This document shows, in pieces, positions 2,174-20,695 of a stretch of DNA of 64,000 nt. Under the pieces are notes generated by a model. It did not search any database, was not told the origin of the DNA, and was given only the letters and a program-made list of their open reading frames with translations. Made by a program: the position numbers and the translations under genes. The stretch is from contig NZ_CP128400.1 of NCBI RefSeq assembly GCF_030389965.1, positions 2,294,001-2,358,000 of the forward strand, in the 5' to 3' direction. This stretch comes from Candidatus Chlorohelix allophototropha (GTDB taxonomy: Bacteria > Chloroflexota > Chloroflexia > Chloroheliales > Chloroheliaceae). Position 1 is the stretch's first letter. Each line of letters opens with the position of its first letter.

Positions 2174-2827
2174 ATGTCCTCAACTCAATTATTCCTGTTA
2201 ACTATAAATGGTACTCAAGGTCAAGCTAGCCTTGAGCAAACCCGCGCTATTCACAATGCTACTGCCGGAGCGCCTGCAAATATCGCTACAGCACAATCTC
2301 TGGGAGACCTCAGTCATTCGGTTTTTGTGCCGGTTCAGGACGAAAAGGGTGAGTTCTTTATTATGGATGTTTGGAATGATATGGAAGGACTCAACCAGTT
2401 TTTTTCCAATCCTCATGTTCAGGAACAAGCCGGGCAAATTTTCGCCACTCGCGACCCGGTGGTGTGGACTCCTGCCAACGATATTTTCCACTACAGCCTG
2501 CTTGCGCCAGCCGGAAAAAATGAGCGGTTTCTTGGGGTTGTGCGCGGGACTGTTTCTTCCAAAGAGCAAGCCCGCAAAACTATGGATGCTGCCACCAGCA
2601 ACGGTCTCAGCAAGGCGCGTAAGCTCGGCGCAATCTCCCACCAGAACTTTTTCCGCATGGGTGGGGAATCGCTCGAATTTCTGGGGGTAGAGGTATGGTA
2701 TAGCCTTGAGGGGGCGTTTGCCTATTACGGTGACCCGGCTTTTGGGGAACAATTTCATGGGATGTACACGGCAGAACCAGCCTCATGGATTTTGCAACGC
2801 CCAGAAGGAACATGGTCTGAATGGTAG
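2174..2827 (+). CDS. Tandem dimeric alpha/beta-barrel protein, unknown function
   Basis: A 217-residue soluble protein. I place the start at ATG 2174 because AGGAG at 2161-2165 is 8 bases upstream; a longer frame to 2111 has no ribosome site. Two halves share a pattern: FFIMDVWNDMEGLNQFFSNPHVQEQ with DPVVWTP, and LGVEVWYSLEGAFAYYGDPAFGEQF with PASWIL. This suggests an internal duplication of an antibiotic-biosynthesis-monooxygenase-like (ABM, dimeric alpha/beta-barrel) domain, making a single-chain barrel. No cofactor-binding residues are obvious, as is usual in that fold. Function is unknown and the fold is inferred from spacing and character of strands and helices. Confidence 0.55.
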   Translation: MSSTQLFLLTINGTQGQASLEQTRAIHNATAGAPANIATAQSLGDLSHSVFVPVQDEKGEFFIMDVWNDMEGLNQFFSNPHVQEQAGQIFATRDPVVWTPANDIFHYSLLAPAGKNERFLGVVRGTVSSKEQARKTMDAATSNGLSKARKLGAISHQNFFRMGGESLEFLGVEVWYSLEGAFAYYGDPAFGEQFHGMYTAEPASWILQRPEGTWSEW

Positions 2828-2841
2828 AATAAGCGCGAAAC

Positions 2842-2872
2842 AAAAAAGCCCGGTTCAACGCCGGGCTTTCTT
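2842..2872. terminator. Bidirectional intrinsic terminator
   Basis: Stem GCCCGG (2848-2853) pairs with CCGGGC (2861-2866) around a 7-base loop, flanked by an A run on the left and TTT on the right. It lies between the convergent genes ending at 2827 and 2894 and can end transcription from both sides. Confidence 0.85.
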
Positions 2873-2893
2873 CATGCCTATTGCAAAAATTCG

Positions 2894-4303
2894 TTAGACT
2901 CCGGTGATAGCTTTGCCTTGCGCTAGGATGGCTTCGACCTTTTCAGGAGAAGTGGTTTCGGTGTAGGCGCGCATAATCGGTTCGGTGCCGCTGAAGCGAA
3001 TCAGCAACCAACTGCCGTCCTCGCTGTAATATTTGAAACCATCATCAAAACGGGTGTTGACGAGTTTTGAGCCAGCCAAATCCTTTGGCGTATTATCGCG
3101 GATGCGTTGCATAATCTCGCCCCGTTTTTCCTGCTCAAAGGTAAAGTCGATGCGGTTGTAATAGTGGGGCCCGACTTTCTCAAAGAGCCAATCAATCAAG
3201 CCGGAAACAGTTTTCCCGGTTTTGACCAACATATCCGCCAGAAATAGACCGCAGATGATACCGTCACGTTCGGGAATATGCCCTCGGAAGCCGAACCCGC
3301 CCGACTCTTCGCCACCCATCAAAGCATTTTCCGCCATCATTTTCGGTCCGATATGCTTGAAGCCCACCGGAGTTTCAAACACCGGGACATTGTAAAGCTT
3401 GCCAAGTTGGTCAAGCATTGAGGTGGTGGAAAGCGACCTTACAATCATGCCACGCTCGCCTCGCACTTCCAGCATGTAGAGTGCGAGTAGGGCGTACACC
3501 CGCAATTGATCTACAAACTCGCCCTTCTCATCCACTAAGCCCACCCGGTCAGCATCGCCATCGTTCGAGATACCGATGTCATACTTGCCGGTTTTCATCA
3601 GTTCCATATGCTCGGTCAGGTTGCGGGCAATCGGTTCGGGGTTGTGCATGCCGGGGAAAATCGGATTGCGCTCGTTGTGCATATTGGTGACGGTGGCAGT
3701 CCCACCGCTCAGGATGCGCGGGAAATAGCCTTGCCCTGCGCCATACATCGAATCCACCAAGATTTTAAGATTGCTCTTGCGGATACCCTCGATGTCCACC
3801 ATTCGCCCCAATTGCTCGATATAGCCTTCGGTTGCATCGAAATATTCCACCAATCCGGCTTTCACCGCATCCTGAAACTTCATGCGCTGTATCGGAGTGT
3901 CGAGATAACCTTCAATGGCGGTCACAATTTCGGGTGAGGCGCTGCCGCCATAATGAGGCTTAACCTTGAAACCGTTGTCGGTGGCAGGGTTGTGGCTGGC
4001 AGTAATGACCACGCCGCCGCCCGCTTTCTTCTCGATAATGGAGTAGCTGAAAACCGGAGTCGGGGCAAAATTGTTACTCAGATAAACTTTTACACCGTTA
4101 GCGGCAAAGACTTCGGCGGTAGCAGCAGCGAAATGTTCCGAGTTGAAACGGGTGTCGTAGCCTATTACCAGACCGTCTTTAGCGTAACCTTCTTTTTTGA
4201 AATATTCGCAGGTGGCTTGCGCTACTTTACGTACATTGTCGAAGGTATAATCTTCGGCGATAACTGCTCGCCAGCCGTCGGTTCCAAATTTGATTTGTGC
4301 CAT
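2894..4303 (-). CDS. Phosphohexomutase (phosphoglucomutase/phosphomannomutase family)
   Basis: A 469-residue cytoplasmic enzyme of the alpha-D-phosphohexomutase superfamily, interconverting hexose 1- and 6-phosphates for glycogen, cell-wall and glycan precursors. All four signature regions are present: the phosphoserine loop TASHNP with Ser103, the magnesium loop NDGDADR, the sugar-recognition loop GGEESGGFGFRGHIPERDG, and the phosphate-binding RFSGTEPIMRAY near the C-terminus. Length matches bacterial members. Sequence cannot reliably decide glucose from mannose or glucosamine; the GEESGG loop favours glucose/mannose types over GlmM. It appears monocistronic, with the shared terminator at 2842-2872 downstream and an interspersed hairpin repeat upstream. 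Confidence 0.93.
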   Translation of the reverse strand: MAQIKFGTDGWRAVIAEDYTFDNVRKVAQATCEYFKKEGYAKDGLVIGYDTRFNSEHFAAATAEVFAANGVKVYLSNNFAPTPVFSYSIIEKKAGGGVVITASHNPATDNGFKVKPHYGGSASPEIVTAIEGYLDTPIQRMKFQDAVKAGLVEYFDATEGYIEQLGRMVDIEGIRKSNLKILVDSMYGAGQGYFPRILSGGTATVTNMHNERNPIFPGMHNPEPIARNLTEHMELMKTGKYDIGISNDGDADRVGLVDEKGEFVDQLRVYALLALYMLEVRGERGMIVRSLSTTSMLDQLGKLYNVPVFETPVGFKHIGPKMMAENALMGGEESGGFGFRGHIPERDGIICGLFLADMLVKTGKTVSGLIDWLFEKVGPHYYNRIDFTFEQEKRGEIMQRIRDNTPKDLAGSKLVNTRFDDGFKYYSEDGSWLLIRFSGTEPIMRAYTETTSPEKVEAILAQGKAITGV

Positions 4304-4410
4304 GTCATCCTCTGCTTTACATTATGTAACCTAACGTGGGCGTATCGGGGGCAATAGCCCTTTCCCACAGAACGATTGCCCCCAACCCCATGAGATTTGT
4401 GCCACCGAAC

Positions 4411-4540
4411 GAGGGCGCATCAGAATGCGCCCCTACCAATTAAAACTTCTCACCAATATCAAGAGAATTAACCCGTAGGGGCGTATTTGAATACGCCCTT
4501 CGTCCGTTGTCCTACCGAACGAAGGCGGCACGCCTACGAA
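4411..4540. repeat. Two interspersed hairpin repeats, family A
   Basis: Two palindromes sit between the mutase and rpe genes: GGGCGCAT-CAGA-ATGCGCCC at 4413-4432, and GGGCGTATT-TG-AATACGCCC at 4479-4498. Flanking segments such as CGAACGAAGG and CCCCTACCAATT recur beside other copies in the window (near 11,374, 29,997, 50,748, 58,213 and 59,659). No coding content. The second copy ends within the last bases of rpe's downstream region. Confidence 0.75.
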
Positions 4541-5211
4541 ATCGCTTGCCGGATAGCCACTCGTATGTCCGTGATATTCTGTGCCACGCTTTGGCGTTTG
4601 TTGAATACGGCAGACCCGGCGACAATTACGTTTGCGCCTGCTTGCACTACCGTACCGACGTTTTGTGCGCCCACACCGCCATCTACTTCAAGCTCAATCG
4701 CCGGATTGACCCGCTCAATCATATCACGCATTCGGCGGATTTTATCCGTGGTGGTTTCGATGTAGGATTGCCCGCCAAAGCCGGGGTTCACGCTCATGAG
4801 CAAAACTAAATCCACATAGGGCAAGATTTCTTCCAGCACGTTAATCGGGGTGGCAGGGTTGATAACTACTCCCGCTTTCGCGCCCGTATTTTTGATTTGC
4901 TGGACGGTGCGGTGTATATGAGGGCAGGTTTCGTAATGCACCGTGACAATGCTTGCCCCCGCTTTTACAAAGTCCTCGATGTAGCGTTCGGGCTTTTCAA
5001 TCATCAAGTGCGTATCGAAGGGAATGTCGGTTACGGCGCGCAACTTTTCCAATATTATAGGTCCGATGGTGATATTCGGCACGAAATGACCATCCATAAC
5101 ATCCACATGCAGGTAATCCGCCCCCGCTTTGACCGCTTCGGTGGCGTGTTCGCCCAACCGCGCAAAGTCGGCTGAAAGAATAGAGGGGGAAATTTTTATC
5201 TTATTTGTCAT
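4534..5211 (-). CDS. rpe: Ribulose-phosphate 3-epimerase
   Basis: A 225-residue TIM-barrel enzyme interconverting ribulose 5-phosphate and xylulose 5-phosphate in the pentose phosphate (and Calvin) pathway. Diagnostic motifs: ISPSILSADFARLG at the N-terminus, the metal-binding LHVDVMDGHFVPNITIGP, FDTHLMIEKPERYI, VTVHYE, MSVNPGFGGQSYI, LEVDGGV and the phosphate-binding VAGSAVF. The start is the ATG at 5211, preceded by GAGG at correct spacing; the frame remains open for 26 more codons upstream but that region overlaps the preceding gene's end. It is the last gene of a minus-strand run with the lipoprotein gene 16 bases upstream. Confidence 0.95.
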   Translation of the reverse strand: MTNKIKISPSILSADFARLGEHATEAVKAGADYLHVDVMDGHFVPNITIGPIILEKLRAVTDIPFDTHLMIEKPERYIEDFVKAGASIVTVHYETCPHIHRTVQQIKNTGAKAGVVINPATPINVLEEILPYVDLVLLMSVNPGFGGQSYIETTTDKIRRMRDMIERVNPAIELEVDGGVGAQNVGTVVQAGANVIVAGSAVFNKRQSVAQNITDIRVAIRQAIS

Positions 5212-5227
5212 ATTAATATCCTCGTAA

Positions 5228-5692
5228 TTATAACTTTTTACACTGTAGCACGTTACCGCGAGTATCGGCGCGATAATCATAACGTACATTTTGAGATTTA
5301 ATCAGCACCGTAATCTGATAACCGGGCGTAAGCACCTGTTGGTACGAGTAATCGGGTTGGGGGCAACCCATCGAGCTATCAGGGAAGGTGCGCGGCAATA
5401 TCGTAACATATTCAAGGTCGTTTTGGGCAATATTCAGCGTAGCTTTCAAGTCTTTAGCTATAGCGTTTTGCGCCAATTCAATTGCCGGGTCGCTTGGGGC
5501 GGTAGTAGCGAGGGCGGCGGTAGTAACAGGCGCGGCAGTATTCGCCGCAGCGGTAGTAGCGAGGGCGGCGGTAGTAGCGGCTGGAATGGTAGTAACAGGC
5601 GCGGCAGTATTCGCGGGAGCGGTTGTCGTGTCACCGCAAGCGGACAAAACTATCAGAGCGAGGCATAAGAGTATGACATGCTTAAATTTCAT
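5228..5692 (-). CDS. Small Ala/Thr-rich lipoprotein
   Basis: A 154-residue predicted lipoprotein: a charged start (MKFKH), a hydrophobic core and the lipobox LSAC, so Cys19 would be lipidated after cleavage and the protein anchored outside the cytoplasmic membrane. A linker of about 50 residues of Ala/Thr repeats (units such as AATTAA) follows. The C-terminal domain of about 85 residues contains FPDSSMGCPQPDYSYQQVLTPGYQITV and YDYRADTRGNVLQC; the two cysteines may form a disulfide. This domain is known to me as a conserved domain of unknown function in exported bacterial proteins. Start ATG 5692 is chosen because it begins a proper signal peptide and has AGGA upstream. It sits 10 bases after the DUF2851 gene. 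Confidence 0.8.
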   Translation of the reverse strand: MKFKHVILLCLALIVLSACGDTTTAPANTAAPVTTIPAATTAALATTAAANTAAPVTTAALATTAPSDPAIELAQNAIAKDLKATLNIAQNDLEYVTILPRTFPDSSMGCPQPDYSYQQVLTPGYQITVLIKSQNVRYDYRADTRGNVLQCKKL

Positions 5693-5702
5693 TGCAAATA
5701 TC

Positions 5703-7547
5703 CTATCCAAGCGGGCAAGTCCCCCAATTCTGTTCGTTGCAAAAGCTATGATGTAATTGGATTAATCCTTGCTGGCGCATTGCACCGCCTAACAAACGGT
5801 TTAGCTTAACCTTCTGGTTCTTATCGCGGTATTCTTCCGGCAATTCGCCGTTCCCCTCCAGCCAAAAGCGAAACACCTGTCGCGCTACGTTCTCCACCAG
5901 TTCATTGCTGCCCTTGCTAGGATAGCTATGGTACACGGCAAGGGCATTTTGCTCAAGCGGAGAGTTTCGAGTGTGGCGAGCATACGCCCAAAGAAAGGGC
6001 AAAGTGGCGTTTATAGTTATCTCTGTCGCTCTGTCCGCGCCGATTAGGGCGGGTGCGGTGCGGGCGTTATCGCTGCCGGGGAGCTTTTCAAGCGTTAGGT
6101 CGTAGCGTTGCGCCCAGAATTGGCGGCTGGCGCTTTCCGTTTTCGGTAGCTCTACCACAAAGAAGGTAGCCAGAACTTTGGCAGCTTGCGCGGGTTCAAG
6201 CCCGGTGATTTTCGCTTCGAGCCTTTCAAGAAGCTCGGTTTCTTCCACCAGTTTGAGCGAAACCGCCCAACGCGCCAAGCCTGCTATGCGCCGCGCCGGG
6301 TGATTTACCGGGCGCACTCGCGCAAAATTCCAGTCTTGCTCGTGCATAGGTTGGAATTGATAGGCGCTTTCCCGTAGGTAACGCTCTAGCCATGCCCAAC
6401 GCCTGTCTAGTTCTTCGGCGTATTCGGCGGCAGCCCAATCTTCCGGGTCAATATCATCTTTAGAGGGGTCAAAAAGCGGTTTCGGACGCGGTTTGCGTTG
6501 GGAAGGCAATAGCCCGGCTGCGCCTAAAATCGCCGCTTCTAGGGTGATAATGCGTTCTTCTGCTTCGTCTGTGGCAGAATCATTCAGCAAATCGAGCAAG
6601 CTGCTCAAGGGCACAATTTGCGATAGGCGTTTGAATTGGGCTTTATTCTGCGCATAGCCCAACGCTTCCAGCAAACCGCTCCAGAAGGGTTGCACAAGGC
6701 TATCTTCCTGCGCACAGGCTGCTTCATATTTCTGCCCTTTTTCCTTAAATCTGCTCTCGCCCAGTTCATCAATTCGCGCCAGCACTTCCGCCAAATTGGG
6801 GTGATGTTGCGCCACCAGTTCACAACAGGGACCCTCGCTTTCGGAAAGAGAGCCAAGCCGAGTTCCACTTGCTTGCGCTAATCTGATAGCTTCCAGCAGT
6901 TCATTTTCATTGCCGAAGCTTTCCAGCAAAGCGAGGGTAGCAGGGTTTTTGCCGTTCAGGGTAGTTACTGCGCCGCCGAGAAGCGCCACATGCAAGATTA
7001 CCTCGTTATAGCGGGAATCGGCAGCATGCCCATGCGCTTGCCAATCCTGTGTGGATAGGTGCAATTCCACATCGCCCCGCAATAGCTCGCCCCCAAGGTC
7101 AATTATTGCCCCTCGAAAATCGGGACCAAGCCCACCACTCCACCTACCCCGATATACGATTTTCAAAGTGCGCCCATCGCTTGCTGTTAATTTACGCCCC
7201 TTCTCCCAGCCTTGCGCGTTCCACAACTCTGCCAATTCGCGCTCGTTGAAAAGACGCGCCAGCCTTGCCATATCGGCGATGTTATCAGATTGCGCCGACG
7301 CTTTGTCCGGCTTGGCGAAAATGATAGAATCATCCTTCGCGCTTGGTTTTAATGAATCGTGGGGAAAGGACATATCCCCAAAGTGAGAGTTTGGGGGATT
7401 TGGAAGGGTAGGTTTTACAACTTCGGGTACAGCTTCAGGGCGTGGCAAAGTTGGAGACGCAGTAGGCTTTCCTGCGGGTTTTTTCTCAGGTCGGCTCTTT
7501 TTCTTGGGTAGCGGATAAAGAAAACGTCCTTCTTCATCGTATGGCAT
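5703..7547 (-). CDS. DUF2851 family protein
   Basis: A 614-residue cytoplasmic protein. The first 90 residues are Lys/Pro-rich and probably disordered (KKKSRPEKKPAGKP). The remainder matches the DUF2851 family: RELAELWNAQGW, the core YRGRWSGGLGPDFRGAIIDLGGELLRGDVELHLSTQDWQAHGHAADSRYNEVILHVAL, and a late AKVLATFFVVELP. GPDF, RGDVELH and Y-NEVILHV are highly regular. The DVELH core with Asp/Glu/His residues hints at a metal-dependent enzyme, perhaps nuclease-like, but no activity is established to my knowledge. It lies 14 bases after the PHP phosphatase gene and 10 before the lipoprotein gene, so the four genes to rpe are likely co-transcribed. Confidence 0.8.
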   Translation of the reverse strand: MPYDEEGRFLYPLPKKKSRPEKKPAGKPTASPTLPRPEAVPEVVKPTLPNPPNSHFGDMSFPHDSLKPSAKDDSIIFAKPDKASAQSDNIADMARLARLFNERELAELWNAQGWEKGRKLTASDGRTLKIVYRGRWSGGLGPDFRGAIIDLGGELLRGDVELHLSTQDWQAHGHAADSRYNEVILHVALLGGAVTTLNGKNPATLALLESFGNENELLEAIRLAQASGTRLGSLSESEGPCCELVAQHHPNLAEVLARIDELGESRFKEKGQKYEAACAQEDSLVQPFWSGLLEALGYAQNKAQFKRLSQIVPLSSLLDLLNDSATDEAEERIITLEAAILGAAGLLPSQRKPRPKPLFDPSKDDIDPEDWAAAEYAEELDRRWAWLERYLRESAYQFQPMHEQDWNFARVRPVNHPARRIAGLARWAVSLKLVEETELLERLEAKITGLEPAQAAKVLATFFVVELPKTESASRQFWAQRYDLTLEKLPGSDNARTAPALIGADRATEITINATLPFLWAYARHTRNSPLEQNALAVYHSYPSKGSNELVENVARQVFRFWLEGNGELPEEYRDKNQKVKLNRLLGGAMRQQGLIQLHHSFCNEQNWGTCPLG

Positions 7548-7561
7548 GGGCTATTGCTCTT

Positions 7562-8386
7562 TTAGGGCTGTAAACGGGCTTTCAGTTGACCAATTACCTC
7601 GTCTGGCACCAAACGTTCACCAAGATATACCTGACCGCCATCGTCTCGCCCGTGAAAGTCGCTGCCTCCGGTTGGCACGATATTATACTTTTGGGCGAGT
7701 TCCAGAAAACGTGCCACCGTCTCCTCATCATAGTGTCCGTAGTAGGTTTCGATACCCGCTAACCCGGTTTGGACGGTTTCTTCCAGAATTCGGTCAAGGT
7801 CATTAACCCAAGTGGGGTGCGCCAAAACTGCCAAACCGCCCACTTCGCGAATCAGTTGCACCGCTTCAACCGGAGTGATTTTCTCGCGATCTACAAATGC
7901 GGGACCACCGTTATAAAGATACTTTTCGAAAGCTTCGGCGATGGTTTGTACATAGCCCTTTTCCTTCATGGCTTCGGCGAAGTGAGGTCGCCCAATTGAT
8001 GCGCCGTTTGCAATTTCCTGCACCCGCGCCCATTCAATCGGCATACCCAGTTCCGCCAATTTTTGGACAATTAGCTCGCCTCGATTAAAGCGGGTATCCC
8101 GAAAATGCTTGAGCTTTGCTTGAAACTCTTGGTTATCATAATTTAGAAAGTAGCCCAAGATATGCACTTCGCCGTTGTCTTCCGCGCTAAGCTCAATACT
8201 GGGGATTACTTCCAAGCCCAGTTTATTCCCAAACAAGATTGCAGCATCAAGCCCGGCGGTAGTATCGTGATCGGTTAGGGCGATGGTTTTCAAGCCCAAA
8301 CTAGCCGCCAACCGGACTAATTCTTCCACGTTAAGAGTTCCATCTGAAGCGGTGCTGTGCATATGAAGATCTACAGTGCCGGGCAT
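7562..8386 (-). CDS. PHP-domain phosphoesterase (nucleoside bisphosphate phosphatase-like)
   Basis: A 274-residue PHP-family metal-dependent phosphoesterase. The metal ligands appear in order: VDLHMHSTASDG (His8, His10), ALTDHDT, SIELSAE, VHILGYFL, LAHP and GGSDFHG near the C-terminus. Length and the insert carrying GASIGRPHFAEAM match the YciV/RNase AM-type branch, which removes the 3'-phosphate of 3',5'-nucleoside bisphosphates or trims 5' ends of RNA. Phosphatase activity on small nucleotides is the most probable role. First gene of a probable PHP-DUF2851-lipoprotein-rpe operon. Confidence 0.85.
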   Translation of the reverse strand: MPGTVDLHMHSTASDGTLNVEELVRLAASLGLKTIALTDHDTTAGLDAAILFGNKLGLEVIPSIELSAEDNGEVHILGYFLNYDNQEFQAKLKHFRDTRFNRGELIVQKLAELGMPIEWARVQEIANGASIGRPHFAEAMKEKGYVQTIAEAFEKYLYNGGPAFVDREKITPVEAVQLIREVGGLAVLAHPTWVNDLDRILEETVQTGLAGIETYYGHYDEETVARFLELAQKYNIVPTGGSDFHGRDDGGQVYLGERLVPDEVIGQLKARLQP

Positions 8387-11475: not shown

Positions 11476-12228
11476 TTACTTCAAATTTACATTGATAGAG
11501 AGAACGAAAGCAACCAGATTGTTGAGAGTAGGTTCGTCAATGGTATCTGTATCAAAGACAGGCATCAGATTTCTACCATTGCGAACGTTGCCGCGAATGT
11601 AAGCCGGGTCTAGCGCGTTTGTGCTGGTGGACAGGTTAGGGCATCCGGTTGGGCCTACTGTTGTTCCCATGTTGGTATGACAGCCTTGGCAAGTGATTTT
11701 GAACATTGAAGCGCCCTTAGTTGCATCTCCTTTTTCCGCTGCCCTTGCTGTTGCAAATTCCTTTACCCTTGCTGCTGCAACCGGGTCGCTAGGTCCTGCG
11801 CCTGCTGCTGCCGCGGTAGTTGCACCCGCTGCTGCTGCTGCCGCGGTAGTTGCACCCGCTGCTGCTGCTGCCGCGGTAGTTGCACCCGCTGCTGGTGCTG
11901 CTGCCGCCGCTGTAGTCGCGCCTGCTATGGTTGGTCCAGCAGGGAGGTTGGCTATAGTAACAGTGGGACGTGTAGCAGGTGTGCTGGTGGCGCCGGCTAC
12001 AAGCGCTGCGCTCTTGGAAGGATCAATTGGGACACCGCCTTGGGGGTTATTATTTCCTTGCGCCGTTTGAACGACAGCAGCGGGTCGTAGAGTGCCGGAT
12101 GCTATGGTCGAGTTCGCATCAATGTCGGTCTGACAAGCGGCTAATAACAGGGTCAGAATCAGCAGCGCCGTCAATCCGCCGGTTGCCGCTAAAAACTTCC
12201 CAGCTTTAGATGAGGTTAGCTGGCTCAT
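11476..12228 (-). CDS. Cytochrome c lipoprotein with Ala/Thr linker
   Basis: A 250-residue predicted lipoprotein. The signal peptide ends at lipobox LLAAC (Cys32). About 120 residues of low-complexity linker follow, including three near-identical GATTAAAAAA blocks. A class I monoheme cytochrome c domain forms the last 85 residues: heme attachment CQGCH (Cys180, Cys183, His184) and axial Met222 in NLMPVF. It probably shuttles electrons on the outer face of the cytoplasmic membrane, tethered by lipid. The domain is about 60% identical by eye to the cytochrome c fused to cytochrome b at 18311-20056. It has its own promoter (12354-12382) and AAGGAGAG before the ATG, and appears monocistronic. Confidence 0.92.
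   Translation of the reverse strand: MSQLTSSKAGKFLAATGGLTALLILTLLLAACQTDIDANSTIASGTLRPAAVVQTAQGNNNPQGGVPIDPSKSAALVAGATSTPATRPTVTIANLPAGPTIAGATTAAAAAPAAGATTAAAAAAGATTAAAAAAGATTAAAAGAGPSDPVAAARVKEFATARAAEKGDATKGASMFKITCQGCHTNMGTTVGPTGCPNLSTSTNALDPAYIRGNVRNGRNLMPVFDTDTIDEPTLNNLVAFVLSINVNLK
11811..11895. repeat. 30-bp tandem repeat coding the linker
   Basis: A 30-base unit beginning TGCACCCGCTGCTGCTGCTG repeats at 11821 and 11851, with a diverged third copy at 11881 and a partial one before. Each unit encodes ten linker residues (GATTAAAAAA) of the lipoprotein cytochrome. Copy number is likely to vary between strains through slippage. Confidence 0.85.
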
Positions 12229-18310: not shown

Positions 18311-20056
18311 TTATTTCACTCGTATAGACGCGACGTAAGCTACCAGATTTTCCAGTTCCGCGTCGCTAATGGTGCTTACATCAAATGCAGGCATTAGATT
18401 TTTACCATTGCGAATATTGTTACGCACGTAAGCTGGGTCTCCGGCATTCGCGCTATTGGTAAGGTTGGGCTGTCCGGCTGGACCGGGTGCTTTACCCATG
18501 CTACTATGGCAGGTTTGGCAAACGGTGCGGAACAGTGCCGCGCCTTTTGTTGCATCACCGGTTGTGGCTGCTGTACCACCTGCTGCAGTTGTAGCGGTAG
18601 CGCCACCTGCCGCAGTTGTAACCGCCGCGGCCGTTGTAGCGGTAGCGCCACCTGCCGCAGTGGTTGTAGCTGCTGGCGTGGTTGTGGTTGTAGCTGCCGC
18701 AACAGGTTTAACTGCCGCATTCAGGTCATTGATTGCCAACACGGTAAGAACCACACAGGCAACCAAGAAGACCAACATGGACAATGAAGCGATAGGACGA
18801 TTTAGTGGGCTGCGTTTGGTACCGCGATCCAGCACCGGAGCCAACAACAACAGTAGCAACAATATTGTCGGCACGATTATACCGCCTATCGCCTCTCCGG
18901 TTATCGTAAACAATCCCAGATTTAATTCGGGCGGGAATATCTTCAAGAACTGGAATAGGAACAGGAAGTACCATTCCGGCTGAGGAGCCATTTGAACTTG
19001 CTTGAGGCTGGCAATATCACTGGCTGTCAGCGTTACGTTGTTGCCTTTGAGGTCAACATACAAAGGCTGATTGGTTTTTGCATCCAGATAAGGTGTGCCA
19101 TCGGGCGCTAAGTCCTGCTCAACTCTCACACCGGCGCTAGTTTCATAAACGGTGCTGGATTTACCTTCAAGGGTGCTGGTAGAGTTGTTAGGGTCTACCG
19201 GGTTAGAGTTCTCAAGGGGCCAAAAGATAGTGGCAAGCACAATCAACCCTACGATGGCTACTGAAGCTACCGCATCCTTGAAGATGATGTAAGGGAAGAA
19301 GGCGCGTCCGGCTTTCTTTTTCTTTACACTGCTAGTATCAAACAAGCTATCACTTGTTTTTTCGTTCAGAATAGGAGGCTGACCGCTGATGCCGATTTTA
19401 ATTACAAGGAACATGTGGACGGCGATCAACAAGCCTGTCAGAACCGGTAGGAGCAAGACGTGTAAGGCATAGAACCTTGTGAGGGTTGCTGCACCAAGAG
19501 ATGGGCCACCTTTAAGGATAGTTTCCACCGCTGGGCCTAGAACCGGGGCAGCGCCACCGATTTTAACGCCCACTTGAGTAGCCCAATACGCGCGGTTATC
19601 CCAAGGTAGTAGGTATCCGGTGAAGGAAAAGCCTAGAACCATTAAGAGGATACCAACGCCGATGAACCAAGTTAGTTCGCGTGGGTATTTGTAGGAACCC
19701 ATGAAGAAGACACGTACCATATGGATCATTACGACAATGACCATCATGTTCGCGCCCCAACGGTGGAAGCCGCGCATCCAATCCCCAAAAGGAATTGTGT
19801 TGGTAATGTGACGCACGCTTTCCAGCGCTTCGTTGCTGAGAACTCCGTCCGGGCGCAGCACCGACGCGGTGGAAGGAGTGTAGCCCATGCCGAGGAAAAT
19901 ACCCGAAACTACCTGAATTAGGAAAATCGTTAAGCTGGCGCTACCAAAGGTAAACCACCAATTTACACTCTTGGGGATGCGTCGGTAAAGCACGTAATCA
20001 ACGGCGGGCTTTATACCGGTACGCTCGTCTACCCATTCATAGACTCGGTTTGCCAT
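18311..20056 (-). CDS. Cytochrome b (b6 + subunit IV) fused to cytochrome c
   Basis: A 581-residue quinol-oxidising subunit of a cytochrome bc/b6f-type complex. Residues 1-230 are the cytochrome b6 part with heme ligands His98/His112 and His199/His214. The 14 and 15 spacings are those of b6-type rather than mitochondrial cytochrome b. The cytochrome b6 cysteine that binds heme c_n is replaced by Thr36. Residues 230-440 are the subunit IV part, with PEWY at 360-363. Between the TM helix ending near 287 and PEWY lies a hydrophilic insert of about 60 residues. An Ala/Thr/Gly linker (450-500) joins a class I cytochrome c domain with CQTCH (513-517) and Met555. ATG 20056 is chosen over TTG 20062. 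Second gene of the operon. Confidence 0.95.
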   Translation of the reverse strand: MANRVYEWVDERTGIKPAVDYVLYRRIPKSVNWWFTFGSASLTIFLIQVVSGIFLGMGYTPSTASVLRPDGVLSNEALESVRHITNTIPFGDWMRGFHRWGANMMVIVVMIHMVRVFFMGSYKYPRELTWFIGVGILLMVLGFSFTGYLLPWDNRAYWATQVGVKIGGAAPVLGPAVETILKGGPSLGAATLTRFYALHVLLLPVLTGLLIAVHMFLVIKIGISGQPPILNEKTSDSLFDTSSVKKKKAGRAFFPYIIFKDAVASVAIVGLIVLATIFWPLENSNPVDPNNSTSTLEGKSSTVYETSAGVRVEQDLAPDGTPYLDAKTNQPLYVDLKGNNVTLTASDIASLKQVQMAPQPEWYFLFLFQFLKIFPPELNLGLFTITGEAIGGIIVPTILLLLLLLAPVLDRGTKRSPLNRPIASLSMLVFLVACVVLTVLAINDLNAAVKPVAAATTTTTPAATTTAAGGATATTAAAVTTAAGGATATTAAGGTAATTGDATKGAALFRTVCQTCHSSMGKAPGPAGQPNLTNSANAGDPAYVRNNIRNGKNLMPAFDVSTISDAELENLVAYVASIRVK

Positions 20057-20131
20057 TGCCAATTTTTCCTTCTAGCCTATAGCTGTGTGTGATGCGAGTT
20101 GTTTTGAGCAGTTAACAGACAACCCACGTGA

Positions 20132-20695
20132 TTATGCTTTACGCTCGACACTTTTGAAGACGTTGATTTTAATCTCTCCGGCTTCGATTTTTACCTCGTA
20201 CTTATCCAGCGGGCGGGGAGCAGGTCCTGCGGTTCGGAAGCCGTCCTGGTCATATTGGCTACCGTGACAACTGCAAAACAGGTCTTTCTGGGCAGCCCGA
20301 TAACTCACGGGACAACCTGCGTGCGTACACATTGAGCTTAGTACCAAAAAATCTTCTGCGTTGGCGGCATTGCTCTTTGTAGCGCGAATAAATACTTTTC
20401 GGGTGATGGTGGCGGGCTTGAATGAATCGGTGTACGCTATATCCCTTAGCAATTTCTCTTTGATTTCCAGTTGGTTGGCAAAATCTGTCACCTTACCCAC
20501 CGACACGAACACATCTGCACTTTCTGAAGAAGTAGCCGGAGCAATGAAGTAACCCACTGCCGGAACTGCAATTACTGCAGTTACCCCCGCGCCTACCGCG
20601 TAGATACCCCATCGTAGGAAAGTGCGACGGGATGGTGTAGGGTCGCTCTCCGCGGTATCGAAATCCATTATTTTTTTGTCTTGCGTCAGAGCCAT
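20132..20695 (-). CDS. Rieske iron-sulfur protein
   Basis: A 187-residue Rieske subunit. The N-terminus has a twin-arginine-like stretch PSRRTFLRWG followed by a single transmembrane helix (about 31-53) that serves as signal and anchor. The cluster ligands lie in CTHAGC (Cys123, His125, Cys128) and CSCHGSQYD (Cys141, Cys143, His144); Cys128 and Cys143 would form the stabilising disulfide. It accepts an electron from quinol at the Qo site and passes it to cytochrome c. GGGGAGA precedes the ATG. It is the first gene of a two-gene operon with the cytochrome b-c fusion 75 bases downstream. Confidence 0.96.
   Translation of the reverse strand: MALTQDKKIMDFDTAESDPTPSRRTFLRWGIYAVGAGVTAVIAVPAVGYFIAPATSSESADVFVSVGKVTDFANQLEIKEKLLRDIAYTDSFKPATITRKVFIRATKSNAANAEDFLVLSSMCTHAGCPVSYRAAQKDLFCSCHGSQYDQDGFRTAGPAPRPLDKYEVKIEAGEIKINVFKSVERKA

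Follow-up and report, generated by a model that had tools for sequence, protein, structure and literature searches.

In the Bacillus b6c and heliobacterial PetABCD complexes, the b6 gene is separate and cytochrome b carries a covalent heme. Heliobacterial PetA is a diheme protein (PMC7143216). Cytochrome c domains fused to cytochrome b itself have also been described. In Chloracidobacterium thermophilum, the petB product of the second petAB operon has a C-terminal cytochrome c domain with an unusual membrane linkage (PMC10968294), and in Kuenenia, cytochrome b and a c domain are joined in the two-gene complex Kuste3096-3097, described as a diheme form with bc1 as its nearest counterpart (PMC12954380). 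Among Chloroflexota, a type I reaction centre (RCI) was first described in the lineage of Candidatus Chlorohelix, and we found no published account of electron return to that reaction centre. The locus analysed here is a concrete candidate for this step. It lies in a stretch of 64,000 nucleotides from Candidatus Chlorohelix allophototropha, referred to below as the window. The source genome (G000) comprises 5 contigs and 6,086,194 bp, with replicons that include 2,961,161, 2,453,413 and 375,274 bp; the Chlorohelix paper gives 2.96 Mb, 2.45 Mb, 375 kb, 241 kb and 55 kb for strain L227-S17 (PMC10972752). The gene may already be listed in that paper, whose main text names no locus for a bc cluster (PMC10972752), and no analysis of its architecture was found in the literature.

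Two adjacent genes on the minus strand make up the locus, with the Rieske gene upstream. Their parts are listed with the basis of each assignment, residues being numbered from the TTG start.

18311..20062, minus strand: cytochrome b6 - subunit IV - linker - monoheme cytochrome c fusion (ORF, Pfam and AlphaFold2 model)
19328..20062, minus strand: cytochrome b6 part, residues ~1-245 (Pfam PF00033; heme ligands H100/H114 and H201/H216)
19949..19951, minus strand: Thr38 codon, at the heme c_n cysteine position (alignment with spinach b6 Cys35)
18707..19327, minus strand: subunit IV part, residues ~246-452, three membrane helices (Pfam PF00032 at 361-452; model helices 255-280, 389-406 and 423-450)
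18968..18979, minus strand: Qo-site PEWY motif, residues 362-365 (alignment)
18569..18706, minus strand: disordered Ala/Thr/Gly linker, residues ~453-498 (composition; pLDDT <50 at 458-498)
18314..18568, minus strand: monoheme cytochrome c domain, residues ~499-583, CQTCH at 515 (Pfam PF13442 at 503-577)
20132..20695, minus strand: Rieske iron-sulfur protein (PF00355), with CTHAGC and CSCHGS and an N-terminal twin-arginine-like RRTFLRWG (ORF, Pfam and motifs)

The fusion gene is an open reading frame of 583 codons from a TTG start, or 581 from an ATG two codons on (20056), with a ribosome-binding-site-like AGAAGGA upstream. Pfam placed Cytochrome_B (28-222), Cytochrom_B_C (361-452) and Cytochrome_CBB3 (503-577) in that order, and the linker (453-499) was found to consist of 20 Ala, 17 Thr, 6 Gly, 2 Pro and 2 Val. 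Reading frame, domains and composition thus bear out an earlier note on this DNA, which described b6, subunit IV, a linker and a monoheme cytochrome c in one chain beside a Rieske gene. Its b6-type heme-ligand spacing of 14 and 15 was recovered at H100/H114 and H201/H216, respectively. Alignment also agreed with its placing of Thr36 where a cysteine would hold heme c_n: this residue, T38 when counted from TTG and Thr36 from ATG, aligned with Cys35 of spinach b6, the heme c_n attachment site. A single CxxCH was present (CQTCH, 515-519), with Met557 within NLMPAF as the candidate Met ligand. The AlphaFold2 model (mean pLDDT 82, pTM 0.73) showed seven membrane helices, disorder at 458-498 and a folded c domain, and its top Foldseek matches were cytochromes b from bc1 and bcc complexes. 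Given an internal N-terminus and seven helices, the c domain would sit outside, where c-type hemes get attached. The reading frame is uninterrupted and a family relative (locus L054) has kept this layout, indicating that the fusion did not arise by chance.

The pair has the parts of a complete bc complex, namely four His for two b hemes, PEWY at 362, a neighbouring Rieske protein carrying its two ligand motifs, and a c-type heme. Judged by these sequence features, it is a candidate quinol:cytochrome c oxidoreductase. The earlier proposal that the tethered cytochrome c replaces c1 or f in a two-gene complex is plausible, as neither the cytochrome c1 nor the cytochrome f family had a Pfam match in the fusion, the c domain being CBB3-type.

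Gene layout was read for 75 related cytochrome b loci, nearly all from Chloroflexota, taken among the better matches of a phylum-wide search. The single-chain b6-IV-monoheme c arrangement was found in 28 of them, the window included. One further locus had a single chain with a diheme c, 16 had a split b6 and IV-diheme c, and most of the remainder were without fused c. A Rieske gene adjoined nearly all 75 loci. In a second set of 75, which included added loci from another phylum, the 14/15 ligand spacing was universal (75/75) and the four heme His were conserved in all rows. The c_n cysteine occurred in 8/75, one of the eight being a fused b-c. From these counts, a cytochrome c tethered to cytochrome b and the absence of heme c_n are routine in Chloroflexota rather than oddities. 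The earlier note had singled out both the fusion and a b6 core without the cysteine, but the counts do not support either as unusual. We accordingly rejected the ideas that the fusion is rare and that lack of the cysteine sets this protein apart. Fused b-c proteins have, moreover, been described in the literature, but no biochemistry was found on those of Chloroflexota. The earlier note named a widespread, characterised Chloroflexota fusion as grounds for refutation, and these grounds thus hold by half.

One feature was unique to the window protein among the relatives examined, an insert just before the PEWY motif.

18995..19180, minus strand: 62-residue insert, residues ~295-356 (alignment, which sets the edges)

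Between the fifth helix and PEWY, the window fusion has a loop of 77 residues, compared with 22 in L054 and 14-15 in nearly all relatives. The insert was modelled by AlphaFold2 as short strands, with moderate confidence. No Pfam family scored above threshold in it, and its identification as a known domain was rejected, the only match being a sub-threshold one to DUF903. In bc complexes this region lies beside the Qo site and the Rieske docking surface, and the insert may therefore shape docking.

The distribution of the window complex was examined in five genomes of the family: the source genome, G303 (the fragmented Chloroheliaceae MAG L227-5C, which carries L054), and three without RCI or FMO. 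The source genome encodes a PscA-like protein of 596 aa with PCLGPAYGGTC on contig 1, and FMO on contig 2. Within the family, RCI and FMO were found in G000 and G303 only, and the same two genomes were the only ones with FMO above cut-off among 150 sampled from the class. The window b-c type was present in both RCI/FMO genomes and in 0/3 of the others. The three non-phototrophs carry another single-chain b-c type, with 37-41% identity and PDWY, and an aa3-like COX1 lies ~3-5 kb from their b-c gene. The source genome has one CcoN-like COX1 gene, and G303 gave no match to COX1 (heme-copper oxidase), a gap being possible in this fragmented MAG. A second b6 type occurs in all five genomes and bears the c_n cysteine in G000. 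There, a second Rieske/cytochrome b cluster (L055 4881-11253, contig 1) encodes a Cys-bearing b6, subunit IV, another Rieske protein, a diheme cytochrome c and an NAD(P)-type flavoprotein. Across the five genomes, therefore, the window b-c type tracks the reaction centre, and the second b6 type does not. This co-occurrence is suggestive rather than proof, because the two phototrophs are close relatives and probably represent one evolutionary event. The family offers a testable contrast between phototrophs with the window complex and non-phototrophs with an oxidase-linked one.

In the phylogenetic tree, the window protein and its L054 counterpart grouped with loci from a different phylum (support 99/96), which are split or fused and mostly of diheme form. 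A 28-member clade of Chloroflexota-type single chains, holding the non-phototrophs of the family, was separate (100/100). This placement suggests inter-phylum transfer, with the monoheme fusion reached independently, although an AU test did not reject a topology that unites these two proteins with the common clade (p = 0.337; p = 0.725 with an earlier sample). The window complex was perhaps acquired from outside the phylum.

A counterpart of the fused c domain is encoded elsewhere in the window.

11476..12228, minus strand: free lipoprotein-type monoheme cytochrome c with an Ala/Thr/Gly linker, a candidate mobile carrier (ORF, Pfam and alignment)

This gene lies ~6 kb from the fusion, and its c domain shares 60% identity with that of the fusion. 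Between the window and L054, the fused c domains share 41% identity and the b cores 64-66%. The DNA of the two window c domains is only 69% identical over 227 bases, so that any exchange between them would be old; recent copying of the domain out of the free gene was rejected. The N-terminal part of the free cytochrome c was matched in G303 but in none of the three non-phototroph family genomes. Its linker is encoded by tandem repeats of 30 and 60 bases (window 11734-11926), and linker length may for this reason vary readily.

Other genes were recorded in the course of the analysis. An orphan Rieske gene (L056 7937-8485) on contig 3 of G000, a chromid, encodes a protein 62% identical to the window Rieske protein. 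No cytochrome b was found beside it in the stretch examined, and it is possibly an alternative subunit for the window complex. In the Rieske protein of L054 (7201-7764), CPCHQSKF takes the place of CSCHGSQY in the window protein, so that the Gly and Tyr typical of this motif are missing, and the redox potential of the L054 protein may differ. Lipoprotein-type cytochromes with at least two c domains on Ala/Thr linkers (L057 7774-10542 on contig 1 of G000; L101/L105 in G303) are numerous in both phototrophs. The window also encodes two tandem DsbA-like/mycothiol-dependent nitroreductase-like proteins (PF22234; 15812-17265, minus strand) and an Eco57I-type restriction-modification methylase (PF07669; 39200-41236, minus strand). 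The earlier note did not mention the reaction centre link, the insert at the Qo region, the second Rieske protein or the free cytochrome c that resembles the fused domain.

We consider it fairly likely that the two-gene Rieske/cytochrome b complex oxidises quinol and serves the type I reaction centre of this Chloroheliaceae phototroph, and we infer its role, electron path and quinone as follows. Quinol, presumably menaquinol, would be oxidised at the Qo site beside PEWY. The first electron would pass to the Rieske cluster and from there to the cytochrome c domain that the b chain carries on its tether. By our own estimate from standard polymer scaling, the disordered linker of ~48 residues would have an average span of ~50 angstrom, enough for the domain to meet the Rieske head of either monomer. 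The second electron would cross the membrane via hemes bL and bH and reach a Qi site that lacks covalent heme c_n. From the tethered c domain, electrons would reach the reaction centre directly or through a lipid-anchored cytochrome c, the leading candidate being the free protein encoded at 11476-12228. Protons moved in this cycle would drive ATP synthesis, and the complex would probably be the light-driven proton-pumping step of the two phototrophs.

The complete bc parts, the co-occurrence with RCI and FMO, the retention of the complex in G303 and the distribution of the free cytochrome c all point to this photosynthetic role. Against it, the two phototroph genomes belong to one family, and the Cys-bearing b6 cluster could also serve the reaction centre. 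The fusion gene is not beside photosynthesis genes; according to the Chlorohelix paper, no large photosynthetic gene cluster occurs anywhere in the genome (PMC10972752). A more specific version can be offered tentatively: a bc complex dedicated to RCI and gained with phototrophy from outside the phylum. In it, the tethered cytochrome c would swing between the Rieske protein and either the reaction centre or the lipid-anchored twin of that domain, and the unique Qo-side insert would shape Rieske docking.

The CcoN-like oxidase of G000 fits the best surviving alternative, an ordinary respiratory complex III in which the tethered cytochrome c would pass electrons to a free cytochrome c and a cbb3-type oxidase, its link to phototrophy being incidental. 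Similar single-chain b-c pairs near aa3-like oxidase genes in the non-phototrophs of the family are also consistent with it. However, this oxidase-linked type falls in a different clade of the tree, and the window complex is kept in G303, where the lack of a COX1 match makes an oxidase an unlikely electron sink, though this absence could be a gap. We regard a purely respiratory complex as rather unlikely. A reverse or branched chain, in which an external donor such as Fe(II) would reduce quinone by way of cytochrome c, seems improbable. Iron(II) treatments do feature in the culture work on Chlorohelix (PMC10972752). A related split complex (L053) lies, on our reading of the ORFs, near multiheme cytochromes and a probable outer-membrane beta-barrel protein (2756-7826), a gene set that resembles an extracellular electron conduit, but no conduit genes were found in the neighbourhood of the window genes. 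Reverse flow is also less needed with a type I reaction centre. Cutting of the linker after translocation, freeing the c domain as a soluble or loosely bound carrier, is the least probable: the linker is disordered and of low complexity, and the fused domain is close to a separate cytochrome c, but the single-chain layout recurs across many lineages, and release of the domain is not needed because the window already holds a gene for a separate anchored carrier.

Electron return to the reaction centre remains the preferred reading, and the complex to which it is assigned compares with described systems as follows. The window pair has the Chloroflexota single-chain layout, in which Rieske adjoins one chain with a b6-type core, subunit IV and a C-terminal monoheme c (e.g. 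L047, L093 and L122-L125), nearly always without the c_n cysteine. Those pairs differ from it in having PDWY, mostly Val at the c_n position and a short pre-motif loop, in forming a separate clade in the tree and, in the family relatives, in lying near an aa3-like oxidase gene. The Chloracidobacterium thermophilum petB-c, likened to it here by description, is also a fused c of an RCI phototroph, from another phylum (PMC10968294). The Kuenenia complex is likewise a two-gene b-c fusion, but diheme where the window chain is monoheme (PMC12954380). Bacillus b6c and heliobacterial PetABCD share with the window a b6/IV-type core and a c-type acceptor other than f or c1. The heliobacterial complex, however, has a separate diheme cytochrome c subunit, whereas the window has a single, fused CxxCH, and Firmicutes b6c (QcrABC) has a separate b6 and an IV-c fusion, whereas b6, IV and c form one ORF in the window. 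Cytochrome b6f matches in its 14/15 spacing and seven-helix b6/IV core; the window chain departs from it in lacking the c_n cysteine (Thr38) and a cytochrome f match, and in fusing b6 to IV. Finally, cytochrome bc1 has an eight-helix cytochrome b and a c1 subunit, in contrast to the seven helices predicted by the model and the lack of a c1 family match in the window.
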